DNA of 35,860 nucleotides, taken from IMG/VR virus record IMGVR_UViG_3300039448_000016, positions 1 to 35,860 of that record; one strand, written 5' to 3'. The DNA comes from a virus. Positions within the stretch are counted from its first letter, which is position 1; each line of letters begins with the position of its first letter. Both the position numbers and the translations under genes were made by a program. Below the pieces are notes generated by a model that saw only the letters and a program-made list of their open reading frames with translations, had not been told where the DNA came from and did no database searches. This document shows, piece by piece, positions 1-35,860 of this stretch.

Positions 1-10
1 GCGAACACAA

Positions 11-43
11 AAAAGCCGCTGACATCAATGATGTAGCGGCTTT
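11..43 (-). terminator. Rho-independent terminator of the host tRNA unit
   Basis: Perfect 9-bp stem (12-20 pairs with 35-43), extended by ACATC/GATGT in the loop. Read on the minus strand it is followed by a T run. It lies 35 bases beyond the 3' end of the host tRNA gene in the direction of tRNA transcription, so it originally ended the tRNA transcript. It is host DNA outside the prophage. Confidence 0.8.
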
Positions 44-77
44 CGTGTCGATCCCATCAGATGCGGAATCATTAATA

Positions 78-127
78 TGGTGGGCCCGCCCAGACTTGAA
101 CTGGGGACCTGCCGATTATGAGTCGGA
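78..127 (-). pseudogene. 3' half of the host tRNA-Ile2(CAU) gene, displaced at attL
   Basis: On the minus strand this reads from the anticodon stem through the variable loop, T arm, acceptor 3' strand and encoded CCA. The T stem pairs CCCAG with CUGGG. The 5' half (D arm, acceptor 5' strand) is absent here and is found at 35734-35776. Joining the halves at the shared 16-bp core rebuilds a full 77-nt tRNA with 7-bp acceptor GGGCCCG/CGGGCCC and anticodon CAU. C4-G69 and C5-G68 favour tRNA-Ile2 over elongator Met. Integration therefore split this gene, and this half alone cannot function. Confidence 0.9.
112..127. repeat. attL core, 16-bp direct repeat
   Basis: CCGATTATGAGTCGGA is identical to 35734-35749, and the match breaks on both sides (g/t on the left, a/t on the right). 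It spans the anticodon stem-loop of the tRNA, a common target of tyrosine integrases. The distance between the two copies, 35,622 bp, gives the prophage length. Confidence 0.92.
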
Positions 128-250: not shown

Positions 251-281
251 TGTGGCTCACTTTTGAGCCAAGTGAGCCACA
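251..281. repeat. Integrase arm-type sites, left pair (inverted 12-mers)
   Basis: TGTGGCTCACTT at 251-262 and its reverse complement AAGTGAGCCACA at 270-281, separated by 7 bp, form a perfect 12-bp inverted repeat. The same 12-mer occurs twice in tandem at 35632-35655 beside attR. Copies close to both attachment cores fit arm-type integrase binding sites. The left pair also lies 19 bp before the integrase start and could serve as its operator. Confidence 0.7.
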
Positions 282-25547: not shown

Positions 25548-28500
25548 ATGCGCTCAGGTTCAATCGAATGGTCCTCGCTTGCGAATGAGGACTCTCGCGA
25601 GCTCGTGCTCGTTGTAAAAGTCCACTACGCTACGCCGCTATATATCACCTCTGCATCTGTCGATGGTTTAAGCGGTCGGGTTCTTAGTGGTCTACTATCG
25701 GATGTATCTTCTCAGTCGCAGAAGATCAACCCAGAGCAGGGTCGATCAGAGATTGGTTCGATCAAGTTTGATGTGACGGATGAAGCTGGTGTATTCACTG
25801 CAGAGCTCAAGAGTGAGCTTGATGGTGGTGCTGGTATCAAAGGGAAGAAGGTTGAATTGTTCAGCGGCTTCGCTGGATTAAGTTTCGATCACTACCGACT
25901 TGAGCAGACTCAGATTGTTGATAAAGATGTCAGCATTGATAATGGTGTGGTCAGCGTATCGTGCGCGGATGTGCAGCGCACCCTTCGCCAAAACATATTC
26001 AACAAAGCCCAGACGGTTCTCACTCAATCAGCCACGAGTGATGACACGACCATCTACTGCGCGAGCACAGCTAACTTTGAACCACTGGCCCACTTCACCT
26101 CGAATTCTGCGGCTAACTCTGGAAGCTATTACTACTTCACCATTAAGTATAACGATGGGATTGAGGTTGTTAGGGCAACAGGGAAAACAGCGACCAGCTT
26201 CACAGGTTGTGAGCGTGGATTCTTTCAGACCTCAGCGCGAGAGCACTTGCTTGAAGAGTCGGATGAAGGGGTAAAGATTGAAGAGTGGGTCTACCTAGAA
26301 CTACCAGCACCGGCGATGGCTTATGCCTTAATGACCGGCAAGTTGATCACTCCCACTGGCACCCATGCAGCGATGCTACCTGATGGCTGGCATCTGGGGA
26401 TTGATGAGCAGTATGTTGATATTCAAGCATTCCGCAATATCGGCTCCGACTGGTTTGTTCCAGGTGATTACAGCAAGGGTAAGATTCTCAGGTTCGACAA
26501 CCCCAAAGCGCAAGATGGCAAGAAGTTCATCGAAAAGCAGATCATGTTGTTGCTTGGTGCGTTCATGCCCATTCGCGCTGATGGGGCTATCTCACTGAAG
26601 CGAATGACTGGCGTATTGTCTACCGCAGCATACTCTCAGGTTCTTGATGAGAGCGTGGTGGTTAAGTACAGCTCAATCAAAAGCGACCTGTCTCGCGTTT
26701 CTAACTCTTTCATGCTTGAGTGGGCCTACTTCACTGGTGAGGACAACAAGCCAGTTTATCTCCGCAAAAACCGCCTGGTTGATGCTGGAAGTGTCGCTCG
26801 CCACGGCTTAGGCAAAGAACAGACGCTTCGGTTCGAAGGCTTACACAATGCACGGCACACCTTTGGAACCATCAAGGATAGCTTCGATGCACTCCGCGAC
26901 CGCTACGCTGGCCCTCCCTTAACGCTCAAACTCGACTTGCTACCCAATCTCACATCGGTTGAAGTGGGTGATGTGGTTCGGGTTAAGCTTGCGAACGTCA
27001 CCGATCCTATTACTGGCGAAAGTTTAGATCGATCTTTTGAGGTTCAATCGATTGGCATTGACCAGAACTCTGGCAAGCTGAGCGTTTCACTTTTCGGATC
27101 CAGTGAGCGAGCGGATGCGATTGAGGATGTAGGCGCTGATGTTTCCGCTGAGCTTCCTGATTCATGGTATAGCGCGGTAGGGATAAACCTATCATCAGTT
27201 GTCAGTATTGATGGCTCTGGATTCGTTCAGGCTGATGCTTCGATTGATGGCGCTACAGATCAGCACACCATCTACTACCACGCTGGCGATCTAACCATCC
27301 CATCAGGTCGCACAATAACCACATCGGAAAACGTAGAGATTCGCGTTCGCGGTGTGCTAACAATCAACGGCCAGATTAAAACAGATTCAACCAATCGCTA
27401 CGCTGGATTCTTGGGAACCACCGTGGGCGGTAAGGGCACATCCAACGGGAGCACTGGCCCAACTAAATACTGGCGCGGCTCAAGAGCTCAGCCTTACGAC
27501 TTCCAGAATGCCACCACGCTTGAGGGTTACCATTCAGCATTCCCACAGATCAGCGTGATCAACAATGCCGGTGAGCTTGAAGGCTTGCCAGAGGATCAAC
27601 GTGGTTCTGGTGGTGGTGATGGTGCCGATGCCATTGCATTCAACCAAGTCGATGATCTATGGGACACTGTTGCAGCTGGTGGTATCGGTGGGTTTGCTGG
27701 TGGTGGTATTCGCATCATCGCTCGTGGTATTGCGTTTGGTTCGACTGGTAAAATCGATACCTCCGGTGATGATGGTACGCCTGGCACTGTTGGCCCGTTG
27801 GGGGTTGGTGGTTCGGGTGATGGTGGTGCTCCTGGTGGGGTGTTGCTGTTAGTCGATGGCAACCAGAATCCATTTCCAATTTTAACCGATAAGACTATCC
27901 CTGCTCGATTCGGTATCTCACCCAACCCAGTCCCAGGTGCTCATCCAGCAGATGATCAAGGCTTGGGGCAGTTAATGGGGAGCGCAGCAGCTAGGGCGCT
28001 ATTCGTTCCCACTTCTCGCACGGCCTACCCTGAATACTCAGCGGCCAAAGTGGTGCGCGGCTCTCAAGTTTTCCAGCAGGATGATGAGCCTACCAATGCA
28101 GATGCTCGCAGCCTAGCAGGGCGCAAGCTTAAGCGAGGCGATGTTTGGTTTAATTCCAGTGATCGAAACCGCCAGCACACCTACAATGGCAGCGCGTGGG
28201 AAGCTGGTGCTGTTACTATCACAAAAGATGATGTGACCGCTTCAGGTGTCGCAGCTTCGGACATTGGTGGCGAGACTCCTTCAGGTGCTCAGTCACGAGC
28301 GGATGCAGCGGAGCAAGCTGCCAAAGCCTACACAGATCAAAACTTTGTTGATGCGGTTACCTACGGCACGGACATTGCAGCGATTCAGGCGCAAGTTGAC
28401 GGCTCGATCACCAACTGGTTTTATGATGGAGTGCCAACGCTAGCTAATGCACCGGCAAGTACCTGGACAACGAACGCAATCAAGGACACCCACTTAGGCG

Positions 28501-30878
28501 ATACCTACTACGACAACAACACCGGTTACGCCTATCGCTTCCTTGAGGACGGTTCGAGTTACAAGTGGCAGCTGATAGCAAACTCTGACATCACTCAAGC
28601 ACTGGCAGCAGCGGCAACCGCTCAAGATACAGCTGACAGCAAGCGCCGTGTTTTTGTGACCACTCCGACCGTTCCTTATGATAATGGTGACCTATGGGAT
28701 ACCGGTTCAGGAATCAAGCGAGCCACGGCTTCAAAGAGCGCCGCACAGTCCTATGATTCAGCAGACTGGCAGCTCATCTCTGATGTAACAAACTACTCCA
28801 GCCCATTAATCAACAATGAGGAGCTGGCCGCAGATCCTAGAGTGAACAACCGCCGATTCCAGTTATCTGGTGGGCGTTTGCAATTCTTGAATGAGGGCGA
28901 CCAGCTTGAGGACTTTGGTGGTGTTACTCGCTTCGACATTGGGGCGGCCAGTGATTCAGAGTTCCTAATTGAAAAGCGTCGAAGTGTTGCAGTAAATCGC
29001 CGGGGCATGAAGCGAGAGCGTGTAGATCGTAATGCGCTGGTGGCTTCCTCTGGCGAGGTAATGACTGCGCGCTTACGCCAGGCTCGCCAGAATTTTGAGG
29101 TTAAGCGCTCCGATGAGAAGGCAGAGGAGGCGGTAGTTTTCGCTGAGAGTATAGCAGCCGAGAAAGCTCAAGAGGCTCAAAGTGCTGCGGCGCTGGTTGC
29201 CCAGGAGCAAGCAAGTCTCGCTCGCACTCAGGCGAATGCCTACGCAGATGGAAAGGTAACAGCCGAAGAGCAGCGAGCGATAGCTCAAGCGGAATTAGAC
29301 CTAGCAGCATCCAAAGCCTACGCCGATGCGCGCAAGGTAGAGGCGAATGCTTACGCAGATGGGATTGTAACTCAGGCAGAGCAAGATGCCATTGATGCAG
29401 CGAACTCCTACGCCGATGCACAAGCAGCGCTAGCCGAAACTAACGCAAACGCTTATGCAGATGGTGTGGCAGATGCCGCAGAGCTGGCCGCTATTTCAGC
29501 AGCAGAAGCTTATGCCGATGCGCGAAAGGTCGAGGCGAATGCCTACGCAGATGGGATTGTGACCACTGCAGAGCAAGCAGCCATCGATGCTTCAAACGCT
29601 TATGCCGATGCCCAGGCGAATGCTGCAGAGGTTACTTCCAAAGCCTACGCCGATGGGATTGTGACTCAAGCTGAGCAAGATGCCATTGATGCGGCGAATG
29701 CAGCGGCGGCTCAAGCCGAGGCGAATGCTATTGCAGCGAGTGACGCAGTTGGTTCTGCCAGTGCAGCTGAACAAGTGGCAAAGACTTATGCAGCACAACA
29801 GGCGGCATCCGCTCGCTCTGGTGCGTTGGCTGATGCGGTAGCTGATTCAAGGACTGCAAACAGCGCAGTGAGCTTGAGCGGATTGGGTTTCTTGGGTGAT
29901 ACCAATGCCAACTATGTATCGAACTCGACTATCGACGGTCGAGCGGATTCGCGGATTGATTCGCTGCGGCCTGATTCATGGGCTGAGACTTTGGCTGATG
30001 CCAGGGTTGGAGCGTTGCGCCCTGATTCAAACTACCGCAATTCAAATACTTCTGCAGCCGATGTTGGGCTTCCAAACGTAGTCGATGGTGCGGATATAAC
30101 CGATTATTCTGACAGTCGAATTTCCAACACTCAGGCGCTTGTTCTCGCTCGCCTCGATGAGGACCTTCGGAATAGCGCGTTCACCTTCAACTCTAACGGT
30201 GAGCTGAAGCGCAATGGGGCGCTAGTAGGTAAGGCAACGCTCGGTGGGCTTGGTTTCTCAGGCGATGCTAATGCCAACTATGTATCGAACTCGACTATCG
30301 ACGGTCGAGCGGATTCGCGCATTGGTTCGCTGCGGCCTGACTCAAGCTATAAAAACTCGAACGTCACAAAGAGTTCAGTGGGGTTGGGGTCAGTTGAGAA
30401 TAAGTCTAGCGCAAGTATCCGAGCTGAGATAACAAAAACAAACTTACTCAACACTGGACTCAGTGTGAGTGATGTTGGGGGGTTGACTCCCTCTGGTGTT
30501 AAATCTACCACCAGGGCAGATCAGAAATCTATTCCCCAGGTATTGAGTGGCGGCCTTGGCTCTCAGGTGAATGTGGTCCCGATCTCCGCTACTGATGCAG
30601 GATCGACTGCCAGAATCTCCGTAGCTTCCCATACGCGATACTATGGTGGGTTTAATGTAGGGCTTAACTCTGGCCTGATTTCCGGCCTTAACTTCAATAC
30701 TCCGTATTACGTTTATTACGATGACGCTTCTTATTCCGGCGGCTCGGTTTCCTACTTCGCAACTACCAATAAATATACAGCTGCATCGGGTATCGGGCGC
30801 GTCTACGTGGGGAAGATTACAACCCCATCCAATGGCGGTGCCGGCACACCTCCACCAGATATTGATGATCTTCGATAA
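25548..30878 (+). CDS. Large tail tip / central fiber protein
   Basis: A 1776-aa protein. Residues 1-530 look like a tail hub (SIEWSSLANEDSRELVLVVK, VEVGDVVRVKLANVTDP). Residues about 540-800 contain a glycine-rich adhesin-like domain (GGGDGADAI, GGIGGFAGGGIRI, GVGGSGDGGAPGG). Residues about 940-1085 hold modules with NWFYDG and GDTYYDN seen in tip proteins. Residues about 1228-1400 are tandem AYADG helical repeats, then two NANYVSNSTIDGRADSRI repeats. It probably combines hub and receptor contact, replacing lambda J. No frameshift or break is visible. Confidence 0.85.
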   Translation: MRSGSIEWSSLANEDSRELVLVVKVHYATPLYITSASVDGLSGRVLSGLLSDVSSQSQKINPEQGRSEIGSIKFDVTDEAGVFTAELKSELDGGAGIKGKKVELFSGFAGLSFDHYRLEQTQIVDKDVSIDNGVVSVSCADVQRTLRQNIFNKAQTVLTQSATSDDTTIYCASTANFEPLAHFTSNSAANSGSYYYFTIKYNDGIEVVRATGKTATSFTGCERGFFQTSAREHLLEESDEGVKIEEWVYLELPAPAMAYALMTGKLITPTGTHAAMLPDGWHLGIDEQYVDIQAFRNIGSDWFVPGDYSKGKILRFDNPKAQDGKKFIEKQIMLLLGAFMPIRADGAISLKRMTGVLSTAAYSQVLDESVVVKYSSIKSDLSRVSNSFMLEWAYFTGEDNKPVYLRKNRLVDAGSVARHGLGKEQTLRFEGLHNARHTFGTIKDSFDALRDRYAGPPLTLKLDLLPNLTSVEVGDVVRVKLANVTDPITGESLDRSFEVQSIGIDQNSGKLSVSLFGSSERADAIEDVGADVSAELPDSWYSAVGINLSSVVSIDGSGFVQADASIDGATDQHTIYYHAGDLTIPSGRTITTSENVEIRVRGVLTINGQIKTDSTNRYAGFLGTTVGGKGTSNGSTGPTKYWRGSRAQPYDFQNATTLEGYHSAFPQISVINNAGELEGLPEDQRGSGGGDGADAIAFNQVDDLWDTVAAGGIGGFAGGGIRIIARGIAFGSTGKIDTSGDDGTPGTVGPLGVGGSGDGGAPGGVLLLVDGNQNPFPILTDKTIPARFGISPNPVPGAHPADDQGLGQLMGSAAARALFVPTSRTAYPEYSAAKVVRGSQVFQQDDEPTNADARSLAGRKLKRGDVWFNSSDRNRQHTYNGSAWEAGAVTITKDDVTASGVAASDIGGETPSGAQSRADAAEQAAKAYTDQNFVDAVTYGTDIAAIQAQVDGSITNWFYDGVPTLANAPASTWTTNAIKDTHLGDTYYDNNTGYAYRFLEDGSSYKWQLIANSDITQALAAAATAQDTADSKRRVFVTTPTVPYDNGDLWDTGSGIKRATASKSAAQSYDSADWQLISDVTNYSSPLINNEELAADPRVNNRRFQLSGGRLQFLNEGDQLEDFGGVTRFDIGAASDSEFLIEKRRSVAVNRRGMKRERVDRNALVASSGEVMTARLRQARQNFEVKRSDEKAEEAVVFAESIAAEKAQEAQSAAALVAQEQASLARTQANAYADGKVTAEEQRAIAQAELDLAASKAYADARKVEANAYADGIVTQAEQDAIDAANSYADAQAALAETNANAYADGVADAAELAAISAAEAYADARKVEANAYADGIVTTAEQAAIDASNAYADAQANAAEVTSKAYADGIVTQAEQDAIDAANAAAAQAEANAIAASDAVGSASAAEQVAKTYAAQQAASARSGALADAVADSRTANSAVSLSGLGFLGDTNANYVSNSTIDGRADSRIDSLRPDSWAETLADARVGALRPDSNYRNSNTSAADVGLPNVVDGADITDYSDSRISNTQALVLARLDEDLRNSAFTFNSNGELKRNGALVGKATLGGLGFSGDANANYVSNSTIDGRADSRIGSLRPDSSYKNSNVTKSSVGLGSVENKSSASIRAEITKTNLLNTGLSVSDVGGLTPSGVKSTTRADQKSIPQVLSGGLGSQVNVVPISATDAGSTARISVASHTRYYGGFNVGLNSGLISGLNFNTPYYVYYDDASYSGGSVSYFATTNKYTAASGIGRVYVGKITTPSNGGAGTPPPDIDDLR
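29230..29745 (+). repeat. AYADG-type coding repeats in the tip protein
   Basis: The protein motif NAYADGIVTQAEQDAIDAAN and variants recur about seven times with a period near 25-30 residues, alternating with SYADAQ/KAYADARK units. The DNA copies (TACGCAGATGGGATTGTAAC-like) are similar but diverged. A long alpha-helical or coiled-coil shaft is likely. Confidence 0.85.
29904..30343 (+). repeat. 74-bp near-identical direct repeat in the tip gene
   Basis: 29904-29977 and 30270-30343 differ at only three bases, and the first 50 bases are identical. Both encode NANYVSNSTIDGRADSRI followed by SLRPDS. The distance is 366 bp (122 codons), so recombination between them would delete 122 residues in frame. 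Confidence 0.93.
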
Positions 30879-35187: not shown

Positions 35188-35537
35188 GCGCTTAGCAACG
35201 CCGGGACACACATGGAGAGGTAAAATGACAAATGGATTAGTCGTGATAACTGCTGACAGTGATCAGCTGCTTTCTATCTGCTGTATGACTGGAGTAGTCC
35301 AGGTAGATTGTCGATCCAGGGATGGGTCGATAAAACGTACTAAGCAGAGAAAGCCAGAGAGCATACAAAGTCAGCGCCTAAGTAAGCGAGTGGCTATGGC
35401 TGCAAAGTTTAAGAGCTTTCGTGAAAGGTGTCGGGAGCTTAGCAACACTGAGACAGTGCCCACCGCTTTCCCCATACGGGTATTGCATAACGGTGGCCTC
35501 CCGACATAACGGGTGTTGTCTCTGCGTTGCTAAGCGC
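35188..35537. repeat. Three copies of a 19-bp element GCTTAGCAACRCNGRGACA
   Basis: Plus-strand copies at 35190-35208 and 35437-35455, and a minus-strand copy at 35517-35535. Sixteen of 19 positions are the same in all three. The outer two extend to a perfect 14-bp inverted repeat GCGCTTAGCAACGC (35188-35201 and 35524-35537) that brackets the 94-aa ORF. The nature is unknown: protein-binding sites or ends of an inserted cassette. Confidence 0.8.
35225..35509 (+). CDS. Hypothetical basic protein between terminal repeats
   Basis: A 94-aa ORF starting MTNGLVVITADSDQLLSICC, with a basic middle (SIKRTKQRKPE, RLSKRVAMAAKFKSFRERCR). ATG 35225 follows GGAGAGGTAAA, a good ribosome site. No family is recognised and coding evidence is modest. 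One copy of the 19-bp repeat lies inside it. It sits between the HTH gene and the element-borne tRNA, opposite in direction to both, and may be a moron. Confidence 0.5.
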   Translation: MTNGLVVITADSDQLLSICCMTGVVQVDCRSRDGSIKRTKQRKPESIQSQRLSKRVAMAAKFKSFRERCRELSNTETVPTAFPIRVLHNGGLPT

Positions 35538-35545
35538 ATTTTAAA

Positions 35546-35622
35546 TGGTGGGCCCGCACGGACTTGAACCGTGGACCTATCGATTATGAGTCGAGTGCTC
35601 TAACCAGCTGAGCTACGGGCCC
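35546..35622 (-). tRNA. Intact tRNA-Ile2 (anticodon CAU) carried by the prophage
   Basis: 77 nt with encoded CCA (35546-35548). Acceptor GGGCCCG/CGGGCCC, D arm GCUC...GAGC, anticodon loop CUCAUAA, T arm CACGG-UUCAAGU-CCGUG. All stems pair except 27-43, which is mismatched in the host copy too. C4-G69 and C5-G68 fit the TilS identity elements of tRNA-Ile2, which decodes AUA after lysidine modification. Elongator Met remains a less likely alternative. It lies inside the two attachment cores, so it belongs to the element and replaces the split host gene. Confidence 0.92.
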
Positions 35623-35631
35623 TTGTTTTTT

Positions 35632-35655
35632 TGTGGCTCACTTTGTGGCTCACTT
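35632..35655 (+). repeat. Integrase arm-type sites, right pair (tandem 12-mers)
   Basis: TGTGGCTCACTT at 35632-35643 and 35644-35655, head to tail without a gap, identical to the two copies at 251-281. They lie 79-102 bp inside the attR core and 10 bp upstream of the intact tRNA. They probably form the second arm of attP. Confidence 0.7.
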
Positions 35656-35733
35656 GGCAAATTGCCGAAAACAAAATTGTTGAATAATTCAGTATTCATG
35701 CGGCCTGTAGAGTAGTTGCTATTTTGATTCGTT

Positions 35734-35776
35734 CCGATTATGAGTCGGATGCTCTAACCAACTGAGCTACGGGCCC
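35734..35776 (-). pseudogene. 5' half of the host tRNA-Ile2(CAU) gene, with attR core
   Basis: On the minus strand it reads acceptor GGGCCCG, UA, D arm GCUC-AGUUGGUUA-GAGC, then the anticodon stem-loop. It ends at the 16-bp core (35734-35749), where prophage sequence begins. It has no T arm or 3' acceptor strand. With 78-127 it makes the complete pre-integration tRNA gene. It keeps the host promoter. Confidence 0.92.
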
Positions 35777-35800
35777 GCTGAATTGAATTCAACTGCCGCA

Positions 35801-35828
35801 ATTATAAAGAAAATTCTGGGATTTAAAA
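35801..35828 (-). promoter_or_regulatory. Host tRNA promoter, now reading into the prophage
   Basis: Minus-strand -10 TATAAT (35801-35806), 25 bp before the tRNA 5' end. The -35 is poor (TTTTAA, 35823-35828, spacing 16). Transcription would pass through the 5' tRNA stub and reach the prophage-borne intact tRNA about 150 bp further on. No terminator lies between. Confidence 0.55.
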
Positions 35829-35860
35829 TAGCTAAGAAGAGCTTTAGGAAAATAAATCGA

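Follow-up and report, generated by a model that had tools for sequence, protein, structure and literature searches.

The window analyzed here is the whole of the virus record IMGVR_UViG_3300039448_000016, 35,860 bp of DNA with the anatomy of a provirus, which splits a host gene for tRNA-Ile2, the isoleucine tRNA with a CAU anticodon, and carries a complete tRNA-Ile2 gene of its own. By Pfam and annotation of the open reading frames (ORFs), its gene set comprises an integrase with the domains Arm-DNA-bind_3, Phage_int_M, and Phage_integrase, an S24-type repressor-like protein, a Nu1/GpA terminase, a lambda-type portal, and a capsid protein, and the ORFs for all of these are open. The 3' half of the host tRNA gene is found at attL and the 5' half at attR, and both contain the 16-bp core CCGATTATGAGTCGGA, of which there are two exact copies (0.03 expected by chance). 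The core spans tRNA positions 27–42, with an uncertainty of one position at the edge, and both halves are nonfunctional as genes. When the attR half is extended into the phage sequence, it reaches 29.8 bits with Rfam, against a cut-off of 29, and lacks the T arm; ARAGORN rejects it and finds the carried tRNA alone at the occupied site, this CAT-anticodon tRNA also being the only one it reports in the window. An ordinary, restoring integration is not what is found, as the sequence past the attR core cannot complete the tRNA by either program. Instead, a tyrosine integrase, an attB that overlaps a host tRNA gene and leaves tRNA halves at both ends, a short core with no functional tRNA rebuilt at either junction, and a complete phage tRNA of the same isotype together fit tRNA-dependent lysogeny. 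A preliminary description of the sequence had already located the 16-bp core and the two nonfunctional halves, had recognized a complete CAU tRNA with the host's acceptor stem between the cores, and had held that the whole tRNA is supplied rather than its 3' part; all of this is borne out.

Joining the two flanks at the core yields a single 77-nt tRNA, in which pairing is possible at 7/7 positions of the acceptor stem, 4/5 of the anticodon stem, and 5/5 of the T stem, the lone mismatch (27–43) being common to all Ile2 genes tested alongside. One exact match to the joined tRNA is present in each of three genomes, those of Gilvimarinus chinensis, an uncultured Microbulbifer, and Bacterioplanes sanyensis. 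The empty site therefore exists, and is seen as an intact gene in these relatives. In two families, matches to the 238-bp empty-site sequence hardly extend past the tRNA. The preliminary description had called for a related empty site to be sought, but had counted an intact tRNA at such a site against its own reading; this does not follow, because an intact gene is just what the model predicts.

The carried tRNA scores 70.5 bits with the Rfam tRNA model and is identical to the joined host tRNA at 68/77 positions, including the entire acceptor stem. In the acceptor, anticodon, and T stems, base pairing of the carried tRNA is as good as in the native gene. At 75/77 positions it matches the native Ile2 of three other Cellvibrionaceae (G811, G853, and G864), the two differences forming one compensating pair, 7–66. 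Judged by its sequence, it is of foreign origin and not the host's own. ARAGORN calls all these tRNAs tRNA-Met because the anticodon is what it reads. They have an Ile2 rather than a Met body, as the preliminary description had assumed: the Escherichia coli homologues are annotated as tRNA-Ile, and the Ile2 tRNAs are set apart from the CTCATAACCC and CTCATAATGC tRNAs found in related genomes, with other CTCATAA-type tRNAs forming separate groups. Positions 4–5/68–69 are C-G, as required by TilS.

Table 1. Features of the integrated element and its host flanks in the window.
Feature	Position	Strand	Basis
Downstream host flank of the tRNA-Ile2 gene; terminator-like hairpin	1–77		Sequence; ends where the 3' CCA of the joined tRNA begins
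Host tRNA-Ile2 3' half (tRNA positions 28–77), attL	78–127	-	blastn, 100% over 50 nt
att core CCGATTATGAGTCGGA, attL copy	112–127		Exact match
Putative integrase arm-type site GTGGCTCACTT	252–262	+	Exact copy
Putative integrase arm-type site, inverted copy of GTGGCTCACTT	270–280	-	Exact copy
Tyrosine integrase, 438 aa	301–1617	+	Translation; Pfam; relatives sit at tRNA-Ile2 genes
Complete phage-borne tRNA-Ile2(CAU)	35546–35622	-	ARAGORN; Rfam; similarity to native Cellvibrionaceae Ile2
Putative arm-type site, between carried tRNA and attR core	35633–35643	+	Exact copy of GTGGCTCACTT
Putative arm-type site, between carried tRNA and attR core	35645–35655	+	Exact copy of GTGGCTCACTT
att core CCGATTATGAGTCGGA, attR copy	35734–35749		Exact match
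Host tRNA-Ile2 5' half (tRNA positions 1–43), attR	35734–35776	-	blastn, 100% over 43 nt
Upstream host flank of the tRNA gene; TATAAT and G+C-rich discriminator, probable tRNA promoter	35777–35860	-	Sequence, inference

The same design recurs in other genomes. We ran a 5'-half pattern on 144 genomes, partly drafts, whose family label of Cellvibrionaceae rests on a search centred on Gilvimarinus; all counts come from pattern searches allowing up to two or three mismatches. A 5' half lies closely upstream of a complete same-strand Ile2 gene in 9 of the 144 (G147, G212, G291, G361, G770, G775, G842, G858, and G860), and five of these nine elements are bounded at the far end by a matching 3' half with an integrase facing it, namely those of G770 (15.9 kb, core of 11 bp), G775 (13.7 kb, 12 bp), G147 (11.2 kb, 9 bp), G860 (29.8 kb, 10 bp), and G212 (9.2 kb, 9 bp). 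G858 is the case of G860 again, spread over two contigs, while in G212, G147, and G775 the layout is found on unbroken contigs of 4.3–5.3 Mb. Between the carried and the rebuilt native gene there are 2 to 13 differences in four of the bounded genomes, and none in G770. A further pair of 5' half and complete tRNA lies near a contig end in G070, which belongs to an order-level sample outside the 144. The carriers, in marine gammaproteobacteria, include several mobile elements unrelated to one another; they measure 9–30 kb, are perhaps not all phages, and have integrases from several lineages.

In G842, G291, and G361, genome-wide searches allowing up to two or three mismatches found no 3' half. 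Their 5' halves (G842:C1:3083083-3083123, G291:C1:496835-496875, and G361:C65:109650-109690) stand beside a complete Ile2 gene of different sequence, and that of G361 has the anticodon CAC in place of CAT. From their sequences, these loci look like possible cases of completed replacement of the essential native Ile2 by a mobile element. G830, considered as a further case, was dropped: its tRNA-Ile2 (L061, 451–699) contains a group I intron (RF00028, 98 bits) that interrupts the anticodon loop, and is closely preceded, at 192–276, by a second Ile2-like gene that is truncated.

There are four exact copies of the 11-mer GTGGCTCACTT, against 0.65 expected when up to one mismatch is allowed. A pair lies on either side of the core and none elsewhere, and these copies are probable arm-type integrase sites. 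The carried tRNA starts just outside them, 111 bp inside the attR core. In G770, G775, and G860, a repeated GGGGTTAC motif is found both past the tRNA and on the integrase side, and the tRNA therefore seems to lie inside attP. In all cases seen, the carried tRNA is close inside the core and on the strand of the host's tRNA, the distance being 27–118 bp in the six bounded elements; the 144-genome survey, which would have revealed any genome in which a half stands by itself, far from a complete copy, found none. Because gaps of 27–38 bp hardly fit a full promoter between core and tRNA, this arrangement suggests that the carried tRNA may be transcribed from the host tRNA promoter via the broken half. 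A more far-reaching variant would be that the substitute tRNA always sits just inside attR and is driven by the promoter of the broken host gene, so that integration switches its expression on, and that this arrangement arose several times, occurs in phages as well as in other mobile elements, and in some cases leads to permanent replacement of the host tRNA gene; we offer it tentatively, with somewhat less than even confidence.

Ordinary elements, in which a displaced 3' half is accompanied by an intact tRNA at the other end, use the same site. They were identified in G787, G252, G852, and G873, in G789 and G848 from the census, and also in G010 and G209, and in E. coli ES8 the intact tRNA-Ile of ileX lies ~53 kb from the displaced 3' half. 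The ES8 element (685.8–739.4 kb, L302/L303) is an island with polysaccharide (capsule) genes and a distantly related integrase. Such elements (ES8 ileX, G787, G010, and G209) share with the window's element both the target and the integrase lineage (~28–35% identity), but differ in bringing the 3' part of the tRNA within attP, so that integration restores the host gene and a displaced 3' half remains. The window integrase falls into one group with those of the restoring elements in G787, G024, G010, and G209 (tree support 100/99), the G770/G775/G860/G858 integrase group has a restoring sister in G789, and the dependent mode requires at least three changes on the integrase tree. Dependent elements at Ile2 in Cellvibrionaceae are similar in number to restoring ones at the same site. 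Among related integrases in viral contigs, 20 of 80 lie beside an apparent enterobacterial Ile2 3' half, and Ile2 is therefore a common target of this lineage. The window integrase as a single query gave no match in viral contigs, where exact matches to the carried tRNA and to the attL end were also not found; at the strict threshold, 369 genomes of the class likewise yielded no integrase match.

tRNA-Ile2 is probably essential in these hosts, and the preliminary description had supposed that it is normally present in a single copy. Single copy is the rule in nearly all of the 144 Cellvibrionaceae genomes, and the Gilvimarinus, Microbulbifer, and Bacterioplanes genomes with the empty site have one such gene each. 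In the five genomes with bounded analogous elements, no complete Ile2 was found besides the carried one. In G875, two copies of a complete tRNA-Ile2 gene with the same sequence lie as direct repeats 25 kb apart (C72, 191793–191874 and 217099–217179; L048 and L049), and no integrase related to that of the window was found between them.

Two other features of the window were noted. An Rfam match to sRNA-Xcc1 (RF02221; 55.8 bits, cut-off 53) at 35422–35506 on the minus strand overlaps the last small ORF and adjoins the carried tRNA, and no such match was found in the other tRNA-dependent elements scanned. A tail-region protein of 1776 aa, encoded at 25548–30878 on the plus strand, contains many degenerate repeats of the type AYADGIVTQAEQDAI.

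tRNA-dependent lysogeny at tRNA-Ile2, which we consider highly probable, best explains the split host gene, the whole tRNA supplied in its place, the exactly matching empty site in relatives, and the single-copy status of Ile2 there. According to this model, the phage tyrosine integrase would recombine attP with attB in the anticodon stem-loop of the host tRNA-Ile2 gene, and no tRNA would be rebuilt at either junction because the shared core is only 16 bp. The carried foreign tRNA-Ile2 would be expressed, probably by read-through from the host tRNA promoter, would be lysidinylated, and would take over AUA decoding. If no other Ile2 is present in the window's host, lysogeny would depend on the phage tRNA, and lysogens would survive only if it works; precise excision would rejoin the halves into the original gene, while imprecise loss of the prophage would be lethal. 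Some observations weigh against this model. G858 holds an Ile2 gene elsewhere in its genome, and the window's host may likewise have a second one, as the record covers the virus only. Furthermore, the Phage_integrase catalytic domain of the window integrase is weak, falling below the Pfam cut-off, and a simple scan revealed no sigma-70-like promoter near the tRNA on either strand, including the expected native promoter.

Phage tRNAs are known to supply codons during lytic growth or to counter tRNA-cutting defences (PMC10865867), and the carried tRNA could mainly serve AUA decoding in lytic growth, or such resistance, in a host with another Ile2, its adjacency to attP being incidental. Viral Ile2 genes of this form are indeed present in at least 119 stretches, and ATA accounts for 54 of the 391 Ile codons in 16 phage ORFs. 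However, a core within 400 bp upstream on the same strand was found in 0 of the 80 Ile2-bearing viral contigs examined, as opposed to the consistently short distances in the six bounded elements, there is no other tRNA in the window, and the host gene is visibly broken; we therefore regard this explanation as unlikely. It is very unlikely that the element is a defective or fixed relic whose tRNA simply replaced the host gene, with its mobile-element biology gone. Such relics seem to exist in G842, G291, and G361, but in the window both halves are perfect, the core copies are identical, arm-type sites are present, and the integrase, repressor-like, terminase, portal, and capsid ORFs are open. 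The halves could also be debris of another event and the complete tRNA the real host gene, through misassembly or nesting of elements, as the record includes no more than 77 and 84 bp of host sequence at its ends and one end could in principle be misjoined. The identity of the joined flanks to genes in three genomes over all 77 nt, the placement of the inner tRNA in a different sequence group from the joined host tRNA, and the same layout on unbroken megabase-sized contigs leave this explanation with hardly any credibility.

Lysogeny that depends on a phage-borne tRNA was described in 2024 for actinobacteriophages, including Fionnbharth, Cluster L, and Gaia, and the Gordonia phages OneUp and Mollymur integrate at tRNA-Ile2-CAT (PMC10865867). 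Core lengths of 8–17 bp and Ile2-CAT targets connect the present elements with that experimentally tested system (PMC10865867), as does the presence of restoring ones among related integrases. They differ from it in being gammaproteobacterial, with an Arm-DNA-bind_3 integrase, and in occurring also on 9–30 kb elements that may not be phages. Whereas in Fionnbharth the tRNA is kilobases away from int and has a strong promoter of its own (PMC10865867), here it is found 27–118 bp inside the attR core, on the same strand as the host tRNA. The Lo5R7ANS-like prophages in tRNA-Leu(UAG) of Sinorhizobium meliloti (PMC11476347, PMC12429752) and the similar case of Lj965 of Lactobacillus johnsonii (cited in PMC10865867) also combine a broken host tRNA gene with a complete cognate tRNA in the prophage, of foreign origin in S. 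meliloti, where isotype and hosts are different from ours. The principle itself is thus known; its use by a gammaproteobacterial phage and further elements in Cellvibrionaceae is new.

The 2024 paper posed the question of how frequent such systems are beyond actinobacteriophages (PMC10865867), and in Cellvibrionaceae the tRNA-dependent design is seen at Ile2 in 9 of 144 genomes. It gives a phage tRNA gene a clear role, together with a possible addiction-like hold on the host, and the relics suggest a route by which a foreign copy may come to replace an essential host tRNA gene.
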